From: Altererythrobacter xiamenensis | Lineage (GTDB): Bacteria; Pseudomonadota; Alphaproteobacteria; Sphingomonadales; Sphingomonadaceae | Reading direction: 5' to 3' | Length of the DNA stretch: 64,000 nt | NCBI RefSeq assembly: GCF_900177715.1 | Contig: NZ_FXWG01000002.1 | Location: forward strand, 434,001-498,000 | In this document: positions 22,630 to 33,221 of the stretch, piece after piece | How the letters are laid out: every line of letters starts with the position of its first letter | Numbering within the stretch: the stretch's first letter is position 1 | Notes under the pieces: generated by a model | Told to the model about the DNA's origin: nothing | Database searches by the model: none | What the model saw: only the letters and a program-made list of their open reading frames with translations | Program-made: the position numbers and the translations under genes

Positions 22630-23871
22630 ATGCGCAGCGAATTTCTTTTCACTTCGGAGAGCGTTTCCGAAGGCCATCCCGACAAGGTTTCCGACCAGAT
22701 CTCCGACGCCATCGTCGACCTGATGCTTGCCAAGGATCCGGAGGCGCGCGTCGCCTGCGAAACCATGACCACGACCCAGCGCGTCATCCTGTCGGGCGAG
22801 ATCCGCTGCGCCCCGATGTACGACCAGAACAACGAGGAGTGGGCGGTCAACGGCGGCTGGGCACCCGGCGCCAAGGAAGAGATCGAGCAGGCCGTGCGCA
22901 GTACCGTGCGCGACATCGGCTACGAGCAGGACGGCTTTCACTGGAAGACGCTGACCTTCGAAAACCACCTCCACGGCCAGTCGACCGAAATCGCCATGGG
23001 CGTCGATGCGGGGCAGGACGGATCGAACAAGGACGAAGGCGCTGGCGACCAGGGCATCATGTTCGGCTTTGCCTGCGACGAAACGCCCGACCTGATGCCG
23101 GCGACGCTCGACTTCAGTCACAAGATCCTCGAACGCCTCGCCGCCGACCGTCATTCGGGTGCGGCACCCTTCCTCGAACCCGATGCAAAGAGCCAGGTCA
23201 CTTTGCGCTACAAGGACGGCAAGCCGGTCGCCTGTACCGCCGTGGTCGTCTCGACCCAGCATGCCAAGGGCTATGACAAGGGCGAGAAGGAAGCCGAACT
23301 AAAGGCCTATGTGAAACAGGCCGTGGCCGATGTTCTGCCCGAAGGTCTGCTGTCGGACGAGACCGTGTGGCACATCAACCCGACCGGCGCTTTCGAGATC
23401 GGCGGTCCCGATGGTGACGCGGGCCTGACCGGCCGCAAGATCATCGTCGACACCTACGGCGGCGCGGCTCCGCACGGCGGCGGCGCATTCAGCGGCAAGG
23501 ATCCGACCAAGGTCGACCGTTCGGCCGCCTACATCACCCGCTATCTCGCGAAAAACGTGGTGGCGGCAGGCTTCGCCCGGCGCTGCACCATTCAGATCGC
23601 TTATGCCATCGGCGTGAGCGAGCCGCTTTCGCTCTATGTCGATACGCATGGCACCGGGACGGTTGCCGACGACAAGATCGAGGACGCAATCCGCTCGATC
23701 GCCAAGCTCGGCGGGCTGACCCCGCGCGGCATCCGCACGCATCTGGGCCTCAACAAGCCGATCTATCGCAAGAGCGCGGCATACGGCCACTTCGGTCGCA
23801 AGCCCGAGGGCGATTTCTTCCCGTGGGAGCGCACAGACCTCGTCGATGATCTGAAGGCTGCGCTTGGCTGA
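22630..23871 (+). CDS. metK: S-adenosylmethionine synthetase
   Basis: A 413-aa protein. The ATP-binding start [20 protein letters not shown], the signature [16 protein letters not shown] (about 138-153) and the second signature [16 protein letters not shown] (about 280-295) are all intact. The enzyme makes SAM from methionine and ATP. The length is slightly above the E. coli enzyme because of alphaproteobacterial insertions. AGAGG precedes ATG 22630 by 5 bp. Confidence 0.98.
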
Positions 23872-23934
23872 ATTCGGCTGGGGCGCTGCGCAAAGCACGC
23901 CCCGACCAAGCCCCGCAGGAATATTTCCAACAAA

Positions 23935-23960
23935 CTTGACACAATTGACACTGTGTCAAG
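23935..23960. repeat. inverted repeat CTTGACAC-N10-GTGTCAAG
   Basis: Perfect 8-bp arms (23935-23942 and 23953-23960). The spacer contains a second direct TTGACAC (23945-23951), and another CTTGACAC is at 24016-24023. The repeated heptamer looks like a multi-site operator; no -10 sequence at 17 bp spacing follows the TTGACA cores. Confidence 0.5.
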
Positions 23961-24088
23961 CGGGCCTCGGCGCGTTTTCGCGTAGAAAATCATGCGTTTG
24001 CGCGTGTTGGACTCACTTGACACTTTCCCTACAGAATGCGCGCGCATGGAACCGACGATATGAAAGAACCGCGCGATGCATGGCAGGC

Positions 24089-24106
24089 TTTTCCTAAGTA
24101 GGAAAA
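24089..24106. promoter_or_regulatory. 18-bp perfect palindrome, operator-like
   Basis: TTTTCCTA-AG-TAGGAAAA has perfect 8-bp arms with a 2-bp centre, the architecture of a dimeric regulator site. The binding factor is unknown. Confidence 0.45.
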
Positions 24107-24300
24107 CGGCGCGCGCCTCTTGCTCGAAACCCCGAGGCACTCCGCCCGCAATGGCCACCCTAACCGGGATCACCCGTATTCAAAGGATGCTTCCGAATGA
24201 CGGCAATGAAGTTTGATGCTGCGAAAGCTGCCTGTCCGCTAACGACCCGATTGCAGACGTTTGGCGCTCCGTCCGCTTTCCGCCCCCAGAGTATGAGCGA

Positions 24301-25722
24301 TCATTCTGTTCCTGCGATCAGACGCACGGGCGATGGCCGCCAGATTCCTTCGCGCATTTCCCGACTGGGTCCTTGCGCGCGCAGCGCGAGATAGAAAGGC
24401 CCTGCTGGAATAGAAATGGCGTTCGGGCCGCTGCCATCGCGCGAAAAGGTTATCGTGACTGACCCATCTTCGGAAACGACCAATCCACGAGTATTCGAAC
24501 TCACCAGATACTTGTCCTCTGTGTTGGGGTGCAGCTCTTGGGTAGTGCGATCGTAGACCGTCACTGACCAGAAGAACTCGCTTGGCGGCACGCTATCAAG
24601 CTTTAGCGAGTAAGCCCCCTCGGACCCGTCGAGCATATTGCCATCGGCATCGATGAAAGTCGTGTAGGCATAGTTTTCGAGCCGGACATTAGCGCCAAGC
24701 CCTAAGCTGTGAACGCCGGCACGATAGTTGTAGTTGTAGCCATAGCGACCAATATCGAACGGCTCTCGCCAGCCGCCTATCATTGCGCCGTTCTGGGTCT
24801 TGATCGTTTCGGCAAAACGATTGGCGCGTTCAAATCCCCGACTGGCCGCTTGAGCGATGACGGGATCTTCCAGCGCCTGCTCGACCGACATCGGTCCGCC
24901 AACGCCCAGCCCGCGGAAACCATGGACAAGCGCGGCTTCGCCGATCCGCACGCCCGCTTCTTCAACGATCCAGTCGAGCACCCGAAGAAATGCCGCCGGA
25001 TCGTCCATTTCTGCAGGCTGAGGGAACGGCCGGCTCGAAGCAGAGTTGAGGCGCGGGCTGATTGTGAAGCTATCCTGCAGCGCTCTGACGGCCGGCAATT
25101 CCTCCCGATCTTCGACCTCCACCCGCATCAAAATCCACATGTATTGCTGTGTGACCCTGAACAGTTCGGCACCGTCCGGTACTTCTCCGCCCCAATCGGT
25201 CGTGGCGATGAGATAGGTCCCGCCATCCGTGCCGTGAGTGCGTGCGCTGATGTTCGTCGCATTGCCGAACAGGTCGAGAAAATTGAGGGTGTAGTACCGC
25301 CCGTTCGTCGGCGGAACGGTGATCAGTACCGGCCCGCTCGACAGATCGAGATACGCATTGGAATAGAGCGTGTCTGCGTTCGGTGTCTTGAATGGTTTGT
25401 ATCCTGGGCCAGCCAGATCGCGGCCATGCGAGAATCTGTTGAAACCGACATAGAGAGCCGAGGTCTCGTCCACCGCCTGAGCGTGCATTTGCGTATAGGT
25501 CAGTACGGCGGGCCGTCCGAATAGCGCGGCATTATAGGCGCTGTTTTCAGCCCAGATACCTCGCATCGCAGGATCTTCTGGGACGGTGTCCTCGGCCAGT
25601 GGCTCGAGAAACTGATCGGCACGGCTGGCATCATACAGCCGCGGCTCGCCACTCGCCGGTGAGACAATGGCGCCCCCAAATAACAAGATCGCGGCGGCGC
25701 AGTATCGAGTGAAGCTGCCCAT
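24301..25722 (-). CDS. exported DUF1254/DUF1214 domain protein
   Basis: A 473-aa protein with signal peptide MGSFTRYCAAAILLFGGAIVSPASG. The DUF1254 part (about 60-190) has GFNRFSHGRDL, FKTPNADTLYSNAYLDLS and the RYYTLNFLDLFGNATNI motif. The DUF1214 part at the C-terminus has GLGANVRLENYAYTTFIDA, LKLDSVPPSEFFWSVTVYDR and a final GPFYLALRAQ. These paired domains occur in periplasmic proteins of unknown function in Proteobacteria. It follows the TonB-dependent receptor on the same strand, but a terminator lies between, so it may have its own promoter or depend on read-through. Confidence 0.9.
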   Translation of the reverse strand: MGSFTRYCAAAILLFGGAIVSPASGEPRLYDASRADQFLEPLAEDTVPEDPAMRGIWAENSAYNAALFGRPAVLTYTQMHAQAVDETSALYVGFNRFSHGRDLAGPGYKPFKTPNADTLYSNAYLDLSSGPVLITVPPTNGRYYTLNFLDLFGNATNISARTHGTDGGTYLIATTDWGGEVPDGAELFRVTQQYMWILMRVEVEDREELPAVRALQDSFTISPRLNSASSRPFPQPAEMDDPAAFLRVLDWIVEEAGVRIGEAALVHGFRGLGVGGPMSVEQALEDPVIAQAASRGFERANRFAETIKTQNGAMIGGWREPFDIGRYGYNYNYRAGVHSLGLGANVRLENYAYTTFIDADGNMLDGSEGAYSLKLDSVPPSEFFWSVTVYDRTTQELHPNTEDKYLVSSNTRGLVVSEDGSVTITFSRDGSGPNAISIPAGPFYLALRAQGPSREMREGIWRPSPVRLIAGTE

Positions 25723-25771
25723 GAGTTATCTCCGATAGGAATATGAGCCAGCTGATCGGCTCGGTAAAAAA

Positions 25772-25794
25772 GGGGCCGCGCAGTGCACGGCCCC
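25772..25794 (-). terminator. rho-independent terminator of the TonB-dependent receptor gene
   Basis: On the minus strand GGGGCCG (25794-25788) and CGGCCCC (25778-25772) form a 7-bp stem with a 9-nt loop, followed by a six-T run. It lies 57 bp past the receptor stop. Confidence 0.85.
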
Positions 25795-25850
25795 GGAAGT
25801 GAACCTCGACCGAGAGCTCAGGTCGAAGCGCTTGGGAAATCGAATGGGCG

Positions 25851-28073
25851 CTAGAACTCGAAGCCCAGTGTCACACCGTACTGGCGGGGCGGGATCGCCG
25901 AGCCGAACGCAAAGAGGCCTGCTACTGGCAGTGCCGATCCGAGCCCCTCCTGATCGAGCAGGTTGCGACCGAATACCCGGGCGTAGATGTTGGAATCGTC
26001 GCCTGTGTAAAGCGTGTAGGTAATCGCTGCCGAGAGATCCTCGGTTGCCGGGTGCAAGCCACGCGGATCGTTGAGACCGAAATCGAACGGCGCCGGTACG
26101 ATGGTCGTCTGGTACGAGCTGGTCGTGCTCAGCCGGACATTGAACTGGAGCTCACTGTTCGCGGAAACTTCCGTTTCGTAGTTGGCAGCCAGCGAGAAGG
26201 TGAAGTCCGGCGTGCGGCGCAGCTGCTGCGTCGAGGCATCCTCGCCCGGATCGAACTGTCCGTTTACGTTGCGGTCGACGAAGAAGCTGTCGTAATCCGC
26301 GTCGAGTATGCCGATCGCGCCAGTCAGGGTGAACCCGTCGAACAGGTTCGCTCTCATGTCCATTTCGAGGCCCTTGATCGTGGCGCTCGCCGCGTTGAGC
26401 GTGACGGTTTCCTGCGGGTTGGCCGAGCCGGGAGGCGTCGCCTGCACGACGTCTTCCTGCTTGTCGTCATACTTCGAATAGAAACCGGCGAAATTGAGGA
26501 TGATATCGCCGCCAAGGAACGAGGTCTTGAGACCAAGCTCATAAGAGTCGACCGTTTCCGGATCGAACGAAGTGGCGACCGCCGTCGGGCTGTTGGCACG
26601 GCCGTTGAAGCCGCCCGCACGATAACCGCGAGCGTAGGATGCGTAGGCAAGGATATCGTCGGTGACATCGTAATCGACGCTCACGCGCGGAGTGAACTCG
26701 CTCCAGCTGTCCTCATTGCTGAAGACCGCGCCTGGCGCGAGAGTGCGCGTGAACTCCTTGTCATCCCACGAGTAGCGCGCACCAAGGCTCAGACGCAGCC
26801 GGTCGGTCAGCGACACGTCGAAGTCCCCGAAGATCGCGAAGCTTTCGGTCTGGTGATCCGTCATCGGATTGACCTGTGCACCGCCAGGGAGCGTCGTGGT
26901 TTGATCGAGCTGGTATTCGTTCTCCCAATAGAAGAGGCCAAGCACGCCTGACACGCCTTCGAAGAACTCTCCGCCGACGCGCAGTTCCTGGCTGAACTGG
27001 CGATAGTCCTGCGCGCGATCGGTCTGGAAGAAGGGGATCGAGGTGCCATCGAAGTCCTGAATTACGCGCTCGTCCGAGTCCCTGAGCGCGGTGATCGATG
27101 TCAGCGTCAGATCGCCGATTTCCCAATTGACCTGTCCCGACAGCGCCACTTCGTCGAAATCGATCGAGCCGAGCTCGTTCGAGAAGACAGTGTAGAGATC
27201 TTCCTTCGTATTGCGGTTGCACTGCTCCGGAATGACCGCGCCGAGCGCAATGCAAAGCACGTCGTTATCGTTCGAAAGCGAAGACACGGCCGGATCGCCG
27301 CCGATCTCCGAATATTCCGCCGTCAGCAGGATTTCGAGGGACGGGCTCGGCTCAACCAGCAAGGTCGCACCGACATTTGTGTTCGAGTTCGCGCCCGTGT
27401 CGCGATCGAGAGTTACATTTTCGTAGAAGCCATCGAATTCGCGGTCATAGCCGAACAGCTTGAGGCCGAAGATGTCTCCGTCGCCCACATTGAGCACGGC
27501 GTTGAATTCCTGGCGTCCGAAGTTTCCGAACGTCGCTTCGCCGCGCACGCCGAACTCCTTCGTCGGTCGCGAACGCTTGATATTGATGACGCCGCCGATG
27601 GTGTTGCGACCGAACAGGGTGCCTTGCGGCCCGCGCAGCACCTCCACCGTTTCGAAGTCGAACGCGTTGCCTAGCTGGCCCGTGTTAGTTCCGCTGAAGA
27701 CTCCATCGATGACCACGCCGACGGTGGGTTCGAAGGACTTCTCGATATCCTCGAAGCTAACGCCGCGCAGCGAGATCGCGCCGCCACCCGGACCGGCACC
27801 CACGGGGTCGATGACTAGGTTCGGAGCAAGACCTTCGACGTCCTCGACCGTCAGCGCTCCCTGCGTTGCCAACTGTTCGGTGCTGACGACCGTTACGGCC
27901 AGCGGCACGTCCTGAACCGACTCATCGCCGCGCAGGCGGCCGGTGACGACGATCTCGCCTTCCATTTCGGCAGCGTTCTCATCCGAATCTTGTGCGATGG
28001 CAGGCGTTGCCCATGCCATGCTCGCCAGCATTGTGGAGCCCAGCAGTCCAAACCCATATCTCTTGGTCATCAT
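25851..28073 (-). CDS. TonB-dependent outer-membrane receptor
   Basis: A 740-aa receptor. Signal peptide to about residue 28 (ATPAIAQ), a TonB box within GEIVVTGRL, a plug domain (about 50-170) with LAPNLVIDP, GVVIDGVF, and VEVLRGPQGTLFGRNTIGG, and a beta-barrel ending in ARVFGRNLLDQ and the C-terminal strand YGVTLGFEF. The plug resembles the sphingomonad IroN/CirA-type receptors often found with aromatic or steroid catabolic genes. The second ATG (28070) is better spaced from GGAGG than the first. It is divergent from the DUF3604 lipoprotein; together they suggest an uptake and processing unit whose substrate is unknown. Confidence 0.93.
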   Translation of the reverse strand: MMTKRYGFGLLGSTMLASMAWATPAIAQDSDENAAEMEGEIVVTGRLRGDESVQDVPLAVTVVSTEQLATQGALTVEDVEGLAPNLVIDPVGAGPGGGAISLRGVSFEDIEKSFEPTVGVVIDGVFSGTNTGQLGNAFDFETVEVLRGPQGTLFGRNTIGGVINIKRSRPTKEFGVRGEATFGNFGRQEFNAVLNVGDGDIFGLKLFGYDREFDGFYENVTLDRDTGANSNTNVGATLLVEPSPSLEILLTAEYSEIGGDPAVSSLSNDNDVLCIALGAVIPEQCNRNTKEDLYTVFSNELGSIDFDEVALSGQVNWEIGDLTLTSITALRDSDERVIQDFDGTSIPFFQTDRAQDYRQFSQELRVGGEFFEGVSGVLGLFYWENEYQLDQTTTLPGGAQVNPMTDHQTESFAIFGDFDVSLTDRLRLSLGARYSWDDKEFTRTLAPGAVFSNEDSWSEFTPRVSVDYDVTDDILAYASYARGYRAGGFNGRANSPTAVATSFDPETVDSYELGLKTSFLGGDIILNFAGFYSKYDDKQEDVVQATPPGSANPQETVTLNAASATIKGLEMDMRANLFDGFTLTGAIGILDADYDSFFVDRNVNGQFDPGEDASTQQLRRTPDFTFSLAANYETEVSANSELQFNVRLSTTSSYQTTIVPAPFDFGLNDPRGLHPATEDLSAAITYTLYTGDDSNIYARVFGRNLLDQEGLGSALPVAGLFAFGSAIPPRQYGVTLGFEF

Positions 28074-28091
28074 TTCCTCCCCGTGTCGTTC

Positions 28092-28142
28092 CTGCCAAAT
28101 TTGCGCATTGGCAGTTCAAGACCTATTCGATTTTATTAATCG
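28092..28142. promoter_or_regulatory. operator-like inverted repeats in the receptor/DUF3604 divergon
   Basis: Two inverted repeats lie in the 141-bp divergent gap: CTGCCAA-N9-TTGGCAG (28092-28114) and CGATT-N5-AATCG (28128-28142). Either could bind the TetR-family protein encoded at 30072-30737. No direct evidence decides between them. Confidence 0.4.
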
Positions 28143-28214
28143 CGATTTATATCTTGGGAGCGGTGCCTTGCTATCATCAAATGTGTCAGTGCGATTTAGC
28201 CGGCGCTGGCTCGC

Positions 28215-30068
28215 ATGAGCATCTCGCGCCAAACGGCGAAAAGGGCGATGATCGGTCGTTCCACATGGGCCGTACTGGCCGTGGCGACGTGCGCTTTGGC
28301 CGGTTGCGCCGAGCAGACGAGCCTACCTGCTCAGACCGATCTCGAGGCGAGCACCGGAGTCGCGCTCGCGCCCTATCCGCAAGAGGTCTACTGGGGGGAC
28401 CTTCACGTTCACACCAATCTCTCGTTCGACAGCAACACTTTCGGTAACGAGCGGCTCGGACCCGACGATGCCTACCGCTTTGCGGCAGGCGAAACTGTCG
28501 TCGCGTCGAGCGGCCGATCGGCGAAACTAGCAAAACCACTCGATTTTCTGATGGTTGCCGACCATGCGGAGTTTCTGGGGGTGCTGAGCGCCGTAAGAGA
28601 TGATGAGCGCGGCATCGTCGAGACGACCCTGGGCAGTCGATGGTCGGGCTATATGCGGGGCGAAAACGGCCTCCGCGATGTGATGGACGATTACGTCGCC
28701 ATGGTGACCCGGGCAAAGCCGATGGACTTGCCCGGAAAAGCCTTCGAAAAGACATCGTGGAACAAGCTGATCGAAGCGGCCGAGCAGCACAATCGCCCGG
28801 GTCAGTTCACCGCCTTTGCTGGATACGAATGGACGTCGATGCCGGGCGGGCGAAATCTTCACCGCGTGGTGATGTTCCGCGACGGTCCTGACAAGACCAG
28901 GCAAACCCTGCCTTTCTCCGCGCTTGAGAGCGATGATCCCGAAAGACTTTGGGACTATCTGGCCAGCTACGAGCAGTCGACGGGTGGCGAGGTGATGGCG
29001 ATCGCTCACAATGGCAATTTGTCCGGCGGCCTGATGTTCGATGACACGGGCATGGACGGCAAGCCACTGACGGCCGACTATGCCAAGCGCCGGTCACGCT
29101 GGGAGCCGGTCTACGAAGTCACCCAGGTCAAGGGGGATGGCGAAGCGCACCCCTTGCTCTCTCCTGACGACCGGTATGCCGATTTCGAGACATTCTACGA
29201 AACCGACATCACGATGCGGCCTCGAAGCGAGGACCCCGAGGCATTGCGCAAGGGTTTGCAAGGCGATTACGCCCGCGCCGGGCTCAAAAAGGGGCTGCGC
29301 TATACTGAGGAACTCGGCTTCAACCCGTTCCAGTTCGGGCTGATGGGTTCGACCGACAGCCACACCGCGCTTGCTACGGCGGACGACGACAACTTCTGGG
29401 GCAAATTTCTCGATTCAGAGCCCGGGCCGGAACGGCTTCAGAGCAAGATGGGCGGAAACCTGTGGGGCAACGCCGGACTGTCGGCTTCGGGGTACACCGG
29501 CGTCTGGGCACGGGCGAACACGCGCGAAGAGATTTTCGCGGCTTTCAAACGCCGCGAGGTCTATGCGACAACGGGGCCGCGTATGCGGCTGAGAGTGTTC
29601 GCGGGCTGGAACTTCGCGCAGTCCGATTTCCAGCGCCGTGATGCTGACGCATTCGGGTATGACGCAGGGGTTCCAATGGGGGGAATCCTTCGCAAAGCAT
29701 CCGGCGCTGAGCGCCCGACCCTGCTGATCCGGGCGCTGAAAGATCCGGACGGAGCTCCTCTAGAGCGCGTTCAGGTCGTGAAAGGATGGCTGGATAGTGA
29801 CGGTGAAGCTCAGGAGCGCGTCTTTGATGTCGCGGTAGCGAAGCGCGGGACTGCGCTTTTCGATATCGCATGGACCGATCCGCAATTCGAAGCCGACCAG
29901 CAGGCCTTCTACTATGTGCGCCTGCTTCAAGTCCCAACCAAGCGCTGGACGACATACGATGCGGAGCGTTACGGCATCGACATCCCCGAAGGCATACCGC
30001 GCATGATCCGCGAGCGTGCCTACAGCTCACCGATCTGGTATCGGCCCGATCTGAGCAAAAGCCGATAA
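28215..30068 (+). CDS. DUF3604 domain lipoprotein (PHP-like fold)
   Basis: A 617-aa lipoprotein. The N-terminus ends in a lipobox LAGC (Cys about 31). The DUF3604 domain starts with YWGDLHVHTNLSFDSNTFG, a PHP-type metal-binding His-x-His, then DFLMVADHAEFLG, and later MGSTDSHTA and REEIFAAFKRREVYATTGPR, all conserved in this family. The pattern resembles PHP-family metal-dependent hydrolases, so a phosphoesterase or other hydrolase is possible, but no activity is established. An internal start at 28248 (MIGRSTWAV) is an alternative. The TetR gene follows 3 bp after the stop. Confidence 0.92.
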   Translation: MSISRQTAKRAMIGRSTWAVLAVATCALAGCAEQTSLPAQTDLEASTGVALAPYPQEVYWGDLHVHTNLSFDSNTFGNERLGPDDAYRFAAGETVVASSGRSAKLAKPLDFLMVADHAEFLGVLSAVRDDERGIVETTLGSRWSGYMRGENGLRDVMDDYVAMVTRAKPMDLPGKAFEKTSWNKLIEAAEQHNRPGQFTAFAGYEWTSMPGGRNLHRVVMFRDGPDKTRQTLPFSALESDDPERLWDYLASYEQSTGGEVMAIAHNGNLSGGLMFDDTGMDGKPLTADYAKRRSRWEPVYEVTQVKGDGEAHPLLSPDDRYADFETFYETDITMRPRSEDPEALRKGLQGDYARAGLKKGLRYTEELGFNPFQFGLMGSTDSHTALATADDDNFWGKFLDSEPGPERLQSKMGGNLWGNAGLSASGYTGVWARANTREEIFAAFKRREVYATTGPRMRLRVFAGWNFAQSDFQRRDADAFGYDAGVPMGGILRKASGAERPTLLIRALKDPDGAPLERVQVVKGWLDSDGEAQERVFDVAVAKRGTALFDIAWTDPQFEADQQAFYYVRLLQVPTKRWTTYDAERYGIDIPEGIPRMIRERAYSSPIWYRPDLSKSR

Positions 30069-30071
30069 TCC

Positions 30072-30737
30072 ATGTCCGCGAGTGTCCCAGCCGTGAAAGA
30101 CCGAAAAAAGGTCAAGCGAGGCCGCCCCGCCAACTCATCTGGAAAGAAGACCCGCGAGCGCCTAATGCGCGCGGCTGCGAGCCATTTCTCGAAGGCAGAG
30201 TTTTCGGACGTGAGCATGGATGCGATTGCCGCCGAAGCAGGACTGACAGGCGCCGCGATCTACAACCACTTCGCGTCAAAGGATGCCCTGTTCATCGCCA
30301 CCGCGGTGCACATGACCCGAACCAACCTTCAAACCATCGAGCAGGCAATCGCGGAGCAAGAAGGGTGGCGAGACCAGCTCAGAGCGGTACTCATGCTGTA
30401 TGTCGACGACCAGACAGGCTGGTTTCAGTATCCGATGCTGACACCTGCAGTGCAGCTCAAGATGCTGCGAAACCGTGATGACTATAGCGAAATGCTGTCC
30501 TTGCGGCGCGATTACGCCGCACAGTTCGAGAAGATCATTGCCGGCGCTATCGCGGAAGGCGACCTGCCGGACCATTTGCCGATCGCCTTGGCCGGACAAC
30601 TGATGGTCGCCTTCATCTACAACGGCATGGGAACTGTCCTAAGCCACCGAGGCGATGACGTCGATGTCCAGAGGATAGTAGATGCGACGGCAGTCATGCT
30701 GGGTGGGACTGTCAGCGCAAATCGGTCGGGAAGCTGA
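30072..30737 (+). CDS. TetR/AcrR family transcriptional regulator
   Basis: A 221-aa regulator. A basic N-terminal tail (KDRKKVKRGRPANSSGKK) precedes the helix-turn-helix (about 46-68: MDAIAAEAGLTGAAIYNHFASKDALF). The C-terminal ligand domain is divergent, as usual. It lies 3 bp downstream of the DUF3604 gene with no obvious Shine-Dalgarno, so it is probably translationally coupled. It likely regulates the divergent receptor/DUF3604 pair in response to a small hydrophobic ligand; that is inference from position. Confidence 0.9.
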   Translation: MSASVPAVKDRKKVKRGRPANSSGKKTRERLMRAAASHFSKAEFSDVSMDAIAAEAGLTGAAIYNHFASKDALFIATAVHMTRTNLQTIEQAIAEQEGWRDQLRAVLMLYVDDQTGWFQYPMLTPAVQLKMLRNRDDYSEMLSLRRDYAAQFEKIIAGAIAEGDLPDHLPIALAGQLMVAFIYNGMGTVLSHRGDDVDVQRIVDATAVMLGGTVSANRSGS

Positions 30738-30838
30738 CTATACTTGTTGATACCCAAGAGCGCTATTGTGATCCTGGAATTCGAAAGCTGACGTTCCGCA
30801 ATCGGCCCAATCATGGTCAAAGGACTGATTCATCTGAA

Positions 30839-30856
30839 TGTCCGCTTTCCACCCAT
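30839..30856 (+). repeat. TGTCCGCTTTCC repeat, copy 1
   Basis: An 18-bp element, TGTCCGCTTTCCACCCAT, matches copy 2 at 31426-31444 except for one inserted C. The two copies flank the lipoprotein gene at 30953-31402. Confidence 0.6.
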
Positions 30857-30952
30857 GTCGTGACGGTTTGACCGAGCTAACCAGCTGCCAGGAGCGGACG
30901 GTCAGCTTACGACCCGATTGTGGACACCAGCTCGATCTGCCATCACCGTCAG

Positions 30953-31402
30953 GTGATAGCGAAAAAACCTGCAGCTCTATTTATTTGTCTCGCTGTCGCG
31001 GGATGTGATCCGTTCGACGCCGATAGCGGCAGCAAGAAAACGTCAAACGAAGTCGAAGACGCCTCGGCGGCGCCGCAGTATGGCGACGTAACCCGTATTT
31101 CTGGCGTCTTTCGGTTTTACTTCGAAATCAGTTCAATCGCTTTTTGTCCTGAACCGCGAGCGTGCCATGAGAGACTTCGATCATCCCATGCAACTGGCTG
31201 TTGGGTTGACTTCGATGATGATGCTAACATCGATTTGAATCGAATTATTGGGAAAGAGGGCCGGTTCGAACACGAGGGCGACTACTGGCTCGAGGGCAAG
31301 GGGCAAATCGCGGTTCAGCCCGGGTATTTCGGCCACCTTGGCAACTATGGCTGCCAAGTCAGAATTACTAGTGTCAGCGCTTTCGCACAGTTTCCCGACT
31401 AA
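30953..31402 (+). CDS. hypothetical lipoprotein
   Basis: About 149 aa from GTG 30953. The start is chosen because VIAKKPAALFICLAVAGC then reads as a compact lipoprotein signal with an AGC lipobox; an upstream GTG at 30920 would add 11 residues. The mature part is hydrophilic with five cysteines (near SSIAFCPEPRACHERL, TGCWVDFDDD and YGCQVRITS), suggesting disulfides in the periplasm. No domain is recognised. It is flanked by copies of a short repeat, and its AT content is higher than that of neighbouring genes, so recent acquisition is possible. Confidence 0.6.
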   Translation: MIAKKPAALFICLAVAGCDPFDADSGSKKTSNEVEDASAAPQYGDVTRISGVFRFYFEISSIAFCPEPRACHERLRSSHATGCWVDFDDDANIDLNRIIGKEGRFEHEGDYWLEGKGQIAVQPGYFGHLGNYGCQVRITSVSAFAQFPD

Positions 31403-31425
31403 CCTAATCTGGCGAAGTGTACGAG

Positions 31426-31453
31426 TGTCCGCTTTCCCACCCATTGGCGGACA
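31426..31453 (+). repeat. TGTCCGCTTTCC repeat, copy 2, with hairpin
   Basis: TGTCCGC (31426-31432) pairs with GCGGACA (31447-31453) across a 14-nt loop, resembling a REP/BIME-like palindromic unit. It lies just past the lipoprotein gene. Confidence 0.6.
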
Positions 31454-31476
31454 TTCCGCCTTATCGTCGTCTCGCC

Positions 31477-31487
31477 GGAAAGCGGAC
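31477..31487 (-). repeat. TGTCCGCTTTCC repeat, inverted partial copy
   Basis: GGAAAGCGGAC is the exact reverse complement of bases 31427-31437 of copy 2, giving a larger 11-bp inverted repeat spanning about 60 bp. Confidence 0.55.
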
Positions 31488-31580
31488 TCGAGATCGTACA
31501 GCTGGAAGGCGCACGCAAGAGTGGCGGAAAGAGGACCGGCGTTTTGCCCCTCGCCGTCTCTCCGGGGACTCGCTCAGCCC

Positions 31581-31640
31581 CTACTCATCATCCTCGCCCA
31601 GCATGGGCGAGGGGCGGTCGAGCGCCAGTTCGGCCTTAGA
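31581..31640 (-). pseudogene. orphan duplicate of a CaiB-type CoA-transferase 3' end
   Basis: Read on the minus strand this stretch encodes AELALDRPSPMLGEDDE followed by a stop, identical in protein to the last 17 residues of the intact CoA-transferase at 32067-33221, with several synonymous differences and a different stop codon (TAG instead of TAA). Upstream of it the similarity ends after about two further codons. It therefore looks like a remnant 3' end of a diverged copy of that gene, left behind when the 31650-32060 segment was inserted or exchanged. Confidence 0.75.
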
Positions 31641-31649
31641 TTCGCAAGT

Positions 31650-32060
31650 TTATCGAGCCTCGCGGTGTTCTGGAGCGATCCACGTGGTGTGAGGCGTTGC
31701 TACACACCATTCCAGCAGGTCAAGTTCCTGAGTTGACGGCGGAAAGGAAGAGGTCAGGGTCACCTCTGCGTGTTCACCGCTCCGTTCAATTCGGAGTCGC
31801 GAACCATTCTCATGGAGATAGGTGAAAGCGGTCGGATCTTGGCCTTTACGCGTGCCGAGCTCCTCGTAATCTTCGAAAATGTGTGAACCGTTTCCGGACA
31901 TCAAACACTCTTGGACATCGTGCACCGAGTATTCGCTGGATCGTTGAAATTGCGGTTGAACATGCATCGCAAACGAACCGTCATTATTCGCCCGAGTGGC
32001 GAGGAAGCCCAGTCCGAGGGCGGCTGCAATCAGCACTATCGTCCCGGTAAGCTTGTTCAT
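31650..32060 (-). CDS. hypothetical exported or membrane-anchored protein
   Basis: A 136-aa protein with an N-terminal hydrophobic segment MNKLTGTIVLIAAALGLGFLA, either a signal peptide or an anchor, and two cysteines in the mature part (CLMSGNGS and LEWCVATP). No domain is recognised. ATG 32060 lies 6 bp past the stop of the CoA-transferase on the same strand, so it reads as the last gene of that operon. It is bracketed by the intact and the remnant CoA-transferase 3' ends, which marks it as an inserted segment. Confidence 0.65.
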   Translation of the reverse strand: MNKLTGTIVLIAAALGLGFLATRANNDGSFAMHVQPQFQRSSEYSVHDVQECLMSGNGSHIFEDYEELGTRKGQDPTAFTYLHENGSRLRIERSGEHAEVTLTSSFPPSTQELDLLEWCVATPHTTWIAPEHREAR

Positions 32061-32066
32061 CCCAAC

Positions 32067-33221
32067 TTACTCGTCATCCTCGCCGAGCATGGGCGAGGGG
32101 CGGTCGAGTGCTAGTTCGGCCTCGGAAAAGGTGAAGGGGCTGCGCACGCCGGGCAACCCGCCCAATTCGATCGCCATGCCGCGCGCCTTCACCTGACGGT
32201 CGGCGAAGACCTGGTCGATCGCGTGGATCGGTCCGGCGGGTACGCCCGCTTCCGCACAGGCAGTTAGCAGCTCTTCAAGCGCGAAACCGCTCGTCGCCTC
32301 GGCGATGATCGCGTCGATCTCTGCGCGGTTTGCGATCCGCGCTTCATTGGTGGCAAAGCGCTCCTCGCCGAGCAGATCGTCGCGCCCAAGCACGTGCAGC
32401 AGCTTGCGGAACAGTCCGTCATTGGCGGGAGCCAGCACGACCTGACCATCGCTCACCGGAAAGACGCCATAGGCGCTGACCTGCGCGTGCTCGTTCCCCA
32501 TGCGCGGCGGGTTCTCGCCGGTGACCTGATAATGCAGCGCCTGACTCGCGAGCAGGCCGACCGAGCAATCGAGCAGCGCCATGTCGACATGCTGGCCGCG
32601 TCCCGTCCGCTCTCGCATCGCGAGCGCCGCCTGCGTCCCGATCATCGAATAGAGCCCGCAGGTCAGGTCGGAGATGGAAATGCCCATCTTCATCGGTTGC
32701 CCCTGCGGTTCGCCGGTCAGCGCCATGAAGCCGCTCATCGCCTGGATGACGAAATCATAGCCCGCCTCATGCGCGCGCGGCCCCGTCTGGCCGAAGCCTG
32801 TCACCGAACAATAGACGAGACGCGGATTAAGCTGGGCGAGGCTCTCGTAATCGAGCCCGAACTTCGCCAGCGTGCCGGTCTTGAAGTTTTCGACCAGCAC
32901 ATCGGCATCGGCGATGAGTGCCTTGACCCGGTCGAGATCTTCGGCGCGCTTGAAGTCGGCCACGATGCTGCGCTTGCCGCGATTGACCGCATGGTAATAG
33001 GCCGCCTCGCGCCGCGTCTCGCCATCCGGCCCCTCGCGCTCGACCCAGGGCGGGCCCCATTTGCGGGTGCCATCGCCATCGGGGCTTTCGACCTTGATCA
33101 CGTCGGCACCGAGATCGGCGAAGATTTGCCCGACCCACGGGCCCGCGAGCACACGCGCGAGCTCCACCACCTTGAGCCCGGCGTGCGGAGCATTGGGATT
33201 GCGCGGTTTATCGAGCCACAT
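32067..33221 (-). CDS. CaiB/BaiF family (class III) CoA-transferase
   Basis: A 384-aa protein, the typical family length. Landmarks: GLKVVELARVLAGPWVGQIFADLGADVIKVE at the N-terminus, GKRSIVADFK, DVLVENFKTGTLAKFGLDYESL with the catalytic Asp region downstream (DMALLDCSVGLLASQ), and GFGQTGPRAHEAGYDFVIQAMSGFM. Class III transferases move CoA between organic acids through a mixed anhydride on Asp. It follows scoB by 14 bp; the three-gene CoA-transferase operon suggests acid activation or ketone-body-type metabolism. The substrate cannot be read from sequence. Confidence 0.95.
   Translation of the reverse strand: MWLDKPRNPNAPHAGLKVVELARVLAGPWVGQIFADLGADVIKVESPDGDGTRKWGPPWVEREGPDGETRREAAYYHAVNRGKRSIVADFKRAEDLDRVKALIADADVLVENFKTGTLAKFGLDYESLAQLNPRLVYCSVTGFGQTGPRAHEAGYDFVIQAMSGFMALTGEPQGQPMKMGISISDLTCGLYSMIGTQAALAMRERTGRGQHVDMALLDCSVGLLASQALHYQVTGENPPRMGNEHAQVSAYGVFPVSDGQVVLAPANDGLFRKLLHVLGRDDLLGEERFATNEARIANRAEIDAIIAEATSGFALEELLTACAEAGVPAGPIHAIDQVFADRQVKARGMAIELGGLPGVRSPFTFSEAELALDRPSPMLGEDDE

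Follow-up and report, generated by a model that had tools for sequence, protein, structure and literature searches.

Within a 64,000-nucleotide stretch of the Altererythrobacter xiamenensis genome (NZ_FXWG01000002.1, positions 434,001 to 498,000; hereafter the window), the genes for a TonB-dependent receptor (TBDR), a DUF3604 lipoprotein and a TetR-family regulator form, judging from gene order and similarity, a small cassette that recurs in Erythrobacter-like bacteria. We lean towards the view that it is a self-contained scavenging unit, locally repressed and moving between genomes, in which a PHP-type hydrolase would be anchored beside the receptor. The TBDR gene (25851-28073, minus strand) encodes a plug and a barrel domain (Pfam PF07715, 59.6 bits, and PF00593, 141.9 bits). 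Divergent to it lies the DUF3604 gene (28215-30068, plus strand; PF12228, 703.8 bits compared to a curated cut-off of 20.4), whose stop codon is separated by three bases from the start of the regulator gene (30072-30737, plus strand; PF00440 TetR_N, 45.8 bits), which encodes a likely local repressor. A fourth gene (24301-25722, minus strand) encodes an exported DUF1254/DUF1214 protein (139.5 and 77.4 bits, respectively). A first-pass annotation of the window had described these four genes, and open reading frames (ORFs) and Pfam matches, all above the respective cut-offs, confirmed them at their positions. The source genome (3.08 Mb, five contigs) contains two DUF3604 genes and one DUF1254 gene, and the nearest named relatives of the window DUF3604 gene are located on uncultured Erythrobacter contigs.

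The surroundings of DUF3604 genes were read in 28 contig loci and in 19 loci from a family-level set of 397 genomes; the latter were opened from the 129 genomes of this set that have a DUF3604 match at an E-value of 1e-50. The layout of a TBDR gene divergent to a DUF3604-TetR gene pair was present in 12 distinct loci (the window, L005 and L034-L043), so that, L005 aside, at least 11 of the 397 genomes carry it. In all 12 of them the receptor gene directly adjoins the DUF3604 gene, and a TetR gene follows 3' of DUF3604, its product showing 31-46% identity to the window regulator in the 11 others. The TetR genes of L005 and L041 were missed by the first gene calling and were recovered by BLAST or a second calling. 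Receptors with at least 68% identity to the window receptor occur in six of the 397 genomes and are located beside DUF3604 in all six, the next best receptor having 50% identity. Among 102 gene clusters found within six genes of the cassettes, three were common to two loci and none to three, and therefore the unit consists of three genes. The cassettes of three genomes of the same genus (G180, G292, and G323) have other surroundings than that of the window. Two Halieaceae loci (L008, L020) also carry DUF3604 with a divergent TBDR gene, followed by genes for enoyl-CoA hydratase and a short-chain dehydrogenase/reductase (SDR); no relative of the window TetR protein was found in these two loci.

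A tree of 49 DUF3604 rows, from which L006 and L007 were left out as contigs of L038 and L040, contained a 19-row clade with a Shimodaira-Hasegawa-like approximate likelihood ratio test (SH-aLRT) support of 98, and 17 of these 19 rows have a TBDR gene within two genes. Among the 30 rows outside the clade, 17 have a PpiC or HupE/UreJ gene within two genes and one has a TBDR gene. The DUF3604 paralogue of the same genome (L053) and three opened plasmid loci (L083-L085) are of this PpiC-HupE kind. Three loci (L046, L049, and L051) combine a TetR gene with PpiC and HupE genes, in L046 and L049 with a TBDR gene nearby as well, and look transitional between the two kinds.

Comparison of the partners points to an exchange between cassette lineages. 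Window-type and B-type cassette receptors share 33-36% identity, and the window-type receptors cluster with nine other receptors beside which no DUF3604 gene is listed. A single clade of both receptor types was rejected (p 5.5e-06) in a 34-row quick tree, which has some long branches and in which L074, a locus with a wrong receptor anchor (26% identity), is mislabeled. An approximately unbiased (AU) test with the 12 cassette receptors alone gave a p-value of 0.376 and is uninformative on receptor exchange because that tree lacks an outgroup. In L038 and L039, the enzyme is of the B type (69-75% identity to the B lineage and 51-55% to the A lineage; grouping with the A lineage, p 0.0115) and the receptor is of the window type (66-69%). 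Since a B-type enzyme is thus combined with a window-type receptor, receptor and enzyme lineages have, by their sequences, changed partners under an unaltered gene layout, through a move of either gene. TetR identities between the lineages are low and do not place the regulators of L038 and L039.

A PHP-type metal motif had been proposed for DUF3604 in the first-pass annotation, and the proposal stood up both at the level of the ligands and at that of the fold. The window protein contains HxH...DH...DxH motifs, and the ligands of PHP sites follow the order H-x-H, D, H, E, H, H, D-x-H. By motif order rather than by coordinates, nine candidate metal ligands were assigned (H64, H66, D72, H117, E205, H216, H265, D381, and H383). 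They were invariant in all rows of a 28-row alignment, which comprised 25 of the 28 contig loci (without L015, L027, and L030), L025 and L026 each being represented by a single copy, and no locus of the 397-genome set. A check widened to 52 cluster rows left them unchanged except for gaps in the truncated L027 and L030. Structure prediction, suggested as a check in the same annotation, gave an AlphaFold2 model from the 28-row alignment with a predicted local distance difference test (pLDDT) score of 87.2 and a predicted TM-score (pTM) of 0.88. The best VIA-align matches of this model are PHP proteins, namely 3e38 (Z 15.5, root mean square deviation (rmsd) 3.9, 234 residues aligned) and 2anu (Z 15.0, rmsd 3.6, 210 residues), followed among further PHP matches by 7k30 (Z 11.9) and 2yb1 (Z 8.7); the first non-PHP row has a Z-score of 4.6. 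In the predicted model, the PHP-like domain is followed by a beta-sandwich domain (about residues 457-614). DUF3604 is thus modeled as a PHP-type metallophosphoesterase domain with a C-terminal beta-sandwich. The window protein further has the lipobox LAGC followed by alanine, so that lipidation at Cys31 is expected, and a lipobox is present in all 12 cassette copies with A, Q, S or G as the +2 residue. A lipobox without aspartate at +2 leads to sorting to the outer membrane, which predicts this location for the cassette lipoproteins.

The gap between the receptor and DUF3604 genes has a length of 141 bp. When the 12 cassette gaps were aligned and 133 columns scored, the best column was the center of an AT-rich palindrome, in the window TATTAATCGCGATTTATA at 28134-28151 (8 of 9 pairs), with a mean of 6.17 of 9 pairs compared to 3.41 (standard deviation 0.76) for all columns. 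The window palindrome by itself was equaled by 15 of 500 shuffles, and 28134-28151 is the only such site in its own genome at up to three mismatches. By its sequence and place it is a likely candidate for the TetR operator. The motif was absent, as judged by eye, from the Halieaceae loci L008 and L020. The 12 gaps share one order, in which a receptor-side hairpin is followed by the palindrome and then by a conserved block, ATCATCAAATGTGTCAGTG in the window (28173-28191) and TCAAAACTGACAGG in several relatives; our guess is that this block may form the -35 region of the minus-strand promoter of the receptor gene. A reading of the TATCATCAAAACTGACAG block as a PhoB box was dropped, since on inspection by eye the B lineage does not keep the first half of the block. 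Sigma-70 scans, with one match in the gap (shuffle mean 0.3) and two in a wider region (mean 2.8), were not used.

The first-pass annotation had seen two inverted repeats in this gap and suggested both as TetR sites, naming the span 28092-28142. Both repeats exist. The palindrome, which overlaps that span partly, fits such a role; the first repeat (28092-28114, CTGCCAA/TTGGCAG), whose stem varies between lineages, fits it less well. Because the stem letters change while the position is kept in all 12 loci (CGCCGG/CCGGCG, GATAGG/CCTATC, CGGCC/GGCCG, GCGATC/GGTCGC and others), an RNA hairpin fits better than a protein-binding site, and on the minus strand the repeat would probably fold into a hairpin (stem CUGCCAA/UUGGCAG) in the leader of the receptor mRNA. 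It is located between the palindrome and the ribosome-binding site of the receptor gene (GGGGAGG, 28076-28082, minus strand), a counterpart of which is visible as CCTCCC-like sequences in other gaps. It is their recurrence at one position in the 12 loci that lends credence to both repeats. The stability of the hairpin is moderate: that of the window was equaled in 28 of 200 shuffles (8 of 300 when a shorter stretch was used), and among local windows of no higher GC content a median of 9% were as stable. In L035 the hairpin is weak (144 of 300 shuffles as stable), and in L035 (14 of 28) and L040 (103 of 203) it is not special compared to local windows. A search of 27950-28350 against Rfam gave no match at an E-value of 1.

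Taken together, we propose the following mechanism. In the absence of a ligand, TetR bound to 28134-28151 would block both divergent transcripts, that of the receptor gene and that of DUF3604-TetR. A ligand, either the imported compound or a processed form of it, would release TetR, whereupon the receptor would carry the compound across the outer membrane. The DUF3604 lipoprotein, expected in the outer membrane, would hydrolyze the compound by means of a putative three-metal PHP site, and the bond cleaved would most likely be a phosphate ester. Phosphoester hydrolysis is the first guess for the chemistry because Sb-PDE, a sphingomonad PHP enzyme that is likewise exported, cleaves haloalkyl phosphate diesters.

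Several observations weigh against this proposal. No PHP family, PF02811 included, was among the Pfam matches of DUF3604 at an E-value of 0.001, and the 28-row profile matched no chain of the Protein Data Bank (PDB) at an E-value of 10; the fold assignment therefore rests on the predicted model and its VIA-align matches. In a Foldseek search with the model, the first PHP chain appeared at rank 28. The lipobox pattern is also found in 10 of 34 other DUF3604 copies and, among the ten loci L044-L053 that lack the cassette, in six, including the paralogue of the same genome. The palindrome is kept at a common center, but single loci score between 4 and 8 of 9 pairs, with 4 or 5 in four of the 12, and in 9 of the 12 loci at least 98 of 500 shuffles matched it, the palindromes being AT-rich; since single-locus palindromes are so often matched by shuffles, the case for an operator rests on its constant place. 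The partner receptor varies with the lineage, which would be odd if enzyme and receptor shared one exact substrate. The flanks of six genes in the 12 loci contain no further common gene, so that the fate of the product is not indicated. Finally, no tested activity of a DUF3604 protein was found in the full-text literature, most subscription papers and preprints being outside its reach. With the same reach, no mention of PF12228 was found; as far as the available part of the source goes, DUF3604 occurs in this literature as a Chlamydia trachomatis protein listed in a table of mutants. The listings of further literature searches contained no paper on this combination of genes. As to the Foldseek rows ranked first (a KirBac channel, UNC119, adhesin repeats, and sandwich domains), they had low TM-scores and were not used.

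A more specific version of the scavenging proposal takes the varying receptors as its starting point, and we put it forward tentatively. It holds that an outer-membrane-anchored, trinuclear PHP enzyme and its TetR regulator stay constant and have been paired at least twice with unrelated TBDRs; at the cell surface, the enzyme would free products from one class of esters, for example organophosphates, and each receptor would suit the product formed locally.

The cassette might instead serve the acquisition of metals or metallophores, the receptor importing a chelate, the three-metal DUF3604 protein releasing or using the metal, and TetR sensing the chelate. The closest solved receptors are mostly of the siderophore type (pesticin, E 1.2e-22; alcaligin, E 2.4e-14), and the commoner DUF3604 type is found in an operon with genes for PpiC and a HupE/UreJ protein, HupE/UreJ proteins being metal-transporter-like. 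Yet the similarity of the receptor to PDB entries is remote, the regulator is of the TetR type and not Fur-like, and the neighborhoods of related receptors point to organic catabolism. Of 22 non-cassette receptor places, 12 with receptors of 42-50% identity to that of the window were opened, and in nine of these gene calling recovered the right receptor (no receptor anchor was obtained in L069 and L070, and a wrong one in L074). In five of these nine loci, a gene for a Rieske oxygenase alpha subunit is located near the receptor gene, and several contain genes for SDR, AMP-ligase, alcohol dehydrogenase or SnoaL-like proteins. Such neighbors of relatives hint at an organic, perhaps hydrophobic, cargo of the receptor, and we regard metal acquisition as unlikely, no search aimed at metal-responsive sites having been made.

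It is also rather improbable that all four genes of the window form one system in which the DUF1254/DUF1214 protein would be a periplasmic partner acting on the substrate together with DUF3604. The linkage of the four genes in other genomes, whose absence the first-pass annotation had named as refuting its proposal, holds in the 12 loci for the receptor, DUF3604 and TetR genes, but fails for DUF1254, which is beside the cassette in the window alone. The stretches examined of the 11 other cassette loci contain no DUF1254 gene, neither by tblastn nor by profile, and a profile scan of 51 DUF3604 loci (two contigs counted twice) was positive only for the rhizobial L016 and L084, where DUF1254 lies within 10 kb of DUF3604 types other than that of the cassette, a neighborhood that favors the four-gene system. 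So do the relatives of the window DUF1254 protein in part: the best of them (41-50% identity) are found at eight places in seven genomes, and a TBDR gene lies within two genes in four of these eight loci and at a distance of five genes in one more; none of the seven genomes is, however, among those with a DUF3604 match at an E-value of 1e-50. Between the receptor gene and DUF1254, a terminator-like hairpin (GGGGCCGTGCACTGCGCGGCCCC TTTTTT; 25772-25794, minus strand) with 10 pairs, 9 of them G-C, and six T residues is located 3' of the receptor gene. It is the strongest of eight matches of a terminator scan that is overall at chance level, shuffles giving 8.1 on average. In addition, the GC content at third codon positions is lowest in DUF1254 (0.654), compared to 0.698 in TetR, 0.717 in DUF3604 and 0.765 in the receptor gene, the mean of 34 other window genes being 0.775 (standard deviation 0.041). 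DUF1254 is probably a passenger that became a neighbor by co-insertion, read-through past the hairpin staying conceivable; its occurrence in one of 12 cassettes, the hairpin boundary and the genomes of its relatives speak against the membership that the first-pass annotation had assigned to it. Four of the eight DUF1254-relative loci (L056, L057, L058, and L060) have a second DUF1254 gene in tandem, and a gene from a cluster that has a sulfatase as its representative is nearby in L056, L057 and L063. The rhizobial DUF3604 regions contain an arylsulfatase gene in L083 and, within about 5 kb, the DUF1254 gene in L084 and L016.

The putative co-insertion concerns an insert of 8.2 kb (23872-32066) between metK (22630-23871) and a CoA-transferase gene (32067-33221), two convergent border genes between which all four genes are located. 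By match coordinates this gap has 8201 bases. It was also measured in 28 further genomes of the genus that carry both border genes on one contig (two of 31 genomes had no CoA-transferase match): ten of them have a gap of 5-181 bp, 17 a gap of 1.2-1.5 kb, and one a gap of 2980 bp. Seven other gaps were opened. Four were empty, one (L088, genome G407) contains an ORF of 360 amino acids, and the 397-amino-acid ORF of another (L090, G404) starts like the 400-amino-acid ORF of a third (L091, G397). The site between metK and the CoA-transferase gene may hence be one of recurrent gain and loss, two of the 17 gaps of 1.2-1.5 kb having been opened. A second copy of the 55 bp that end the CoA-transferase gene (32068-32122) is present 486 bp away at 31582-31636 with 51 of 55 positions identical, and a small ORF (31650-32060, minus strand) lies between the two copies; this duplication is perhaps a scar of an insertion at this site.

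Short repeats of the GTCCGCTTTCC type flank the four genes on both sides (24226-24286, 30786-30925, and 31427-31536); the window contains four matches, a number reached in none of 100 shuffles. A companion motif, ACGACCCGATTG, is weaker, with two matches and 11 of 100 shuffles reaching as many. Contig C5 of the assembly carries three partial copies of the stretch 30750-31000.

We give little credence to a role in detoxification or defense, in which DUF3604 would destroy a toxic compound entering via the receptor and TetR would be its sensor. A TetR gene next to the enzyme under its control is a typical arrangement of resistance loci, and the distribution is patchy (at least 11 of 397 genomes); but a resistance locus would hardly be expected to co-induce the importer of the toxin, and the three genes include none for efflux. 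That the genes are ordinary neighbors, hitch-hiking within one group without functional meaning, is very improbable: gene order is easily inherited and the 12 loci are confined to one family-level group and to Erythrobacter contigs, but the cassette flanks hardly overlap, receptor and enzyme lineages were re-paired with the layout kept, and the Halieaceae loci likewise pair DUF3604 with a divergent TBDR.

Among the closest known arrangements is the DUF3604-PpiC-HupE/UreJ operon (for example at L053 and on rhizobial plasmids), whose DUF3604 proteins have 40-50% identity to those of the cassette, are exported and share the nine ligands; some, that of L053 included, also have a lipobox. In most of these operons, PpiC and HupE genes are present instead of the divergent TBDR and TetR genes of the cassette. 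No Rotamase_2 (PpiC) or HupE_UreJ_2 gene was among the neighbors listed for the DUF3604 gene of the window; both are present at L053. This operon recurs in Proteobacteria, and a Ruegeria plasmid carries it behind the ExbB, ExbD, and TonB genes.

The following comparisons with published systems hold as far as the available parts of the sources go. Sb-PDE of Sphingobium sp. TCM1 is an exported phosphodiesterase of the PHP superfamily for haloalkyl phosphate diesters, and its nine coordinating residues were reported to be conserved (PMC5460133). It resembles the cassette DUF3604 protein in being exported, in its sphingomonad origin and in its nine-residue site, a likeness by description and not by sequence, but differs in its length of 441 amino acids, its Pfam family (PF02811), its homodimeric state, and its cleaved signal peptide; neither TonB nor TetR is mentioned in the main text of that paper (PMC5460133). 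The sux locus of Xanthomonas, a carbohydrate utilization locus with a TBDR (CUT locus), combines a TBDR, an enzyme and a local repressor, as the cassette would with its putative repressor, but the sux repressor is of the LacI/GalR type and the locus also encodes an inner-membrane transporter and amylosucrase, which the cassette lacks (PMC1790865). No carbohydrate enzyme is encoded within the three genes, and neither is an inner-membrane transporter, the flanking genes being only partly annotated. By analogy, the cassette resembles small TBDR loci with their own regulator but, with no inner-membrane transporter among its three genes, is not classed as a CUT locus. EdcT of Novosphingobium tardaugens is a TBDR for estradiol, and the edc cluster contains a putative TetR gene (PMC7793797). 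With its sphingomonad receptor for a hydrophobic organic compound, its divergent operons 137 bp apart and the putative TetR gene, edc is like the cassette; unlike it, the cluster comprises a whole catabolic pathway (PMC7793797). The two best structural matches, 3e38 (BVU_3505) and 2anu (TM0559), are solved proteins with the PHP-domain fold of the DUF3604 model, 3e38 also having two domains, at 13-16% sequence identity. To our knowledge, no tested function is known for either of them.

The cassette provides a handle on DUF3604, as the compounds that the regulator binds, the receptor imports and the enzyme cleaves should be related, and one screen could reveal all three together. That one enzyme clade is combined with receptors of different lineages is also of relevance to the assembly of loci for TonB-dependent uptake. 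Should the tentative proposal of a constant surface hydrolase with interchangeable receptors be true, it would provide the first function for the DUF3604 family and a new layout for nutrient capture at the outer membrane, outside the SusCD type of the Bacteroidota.

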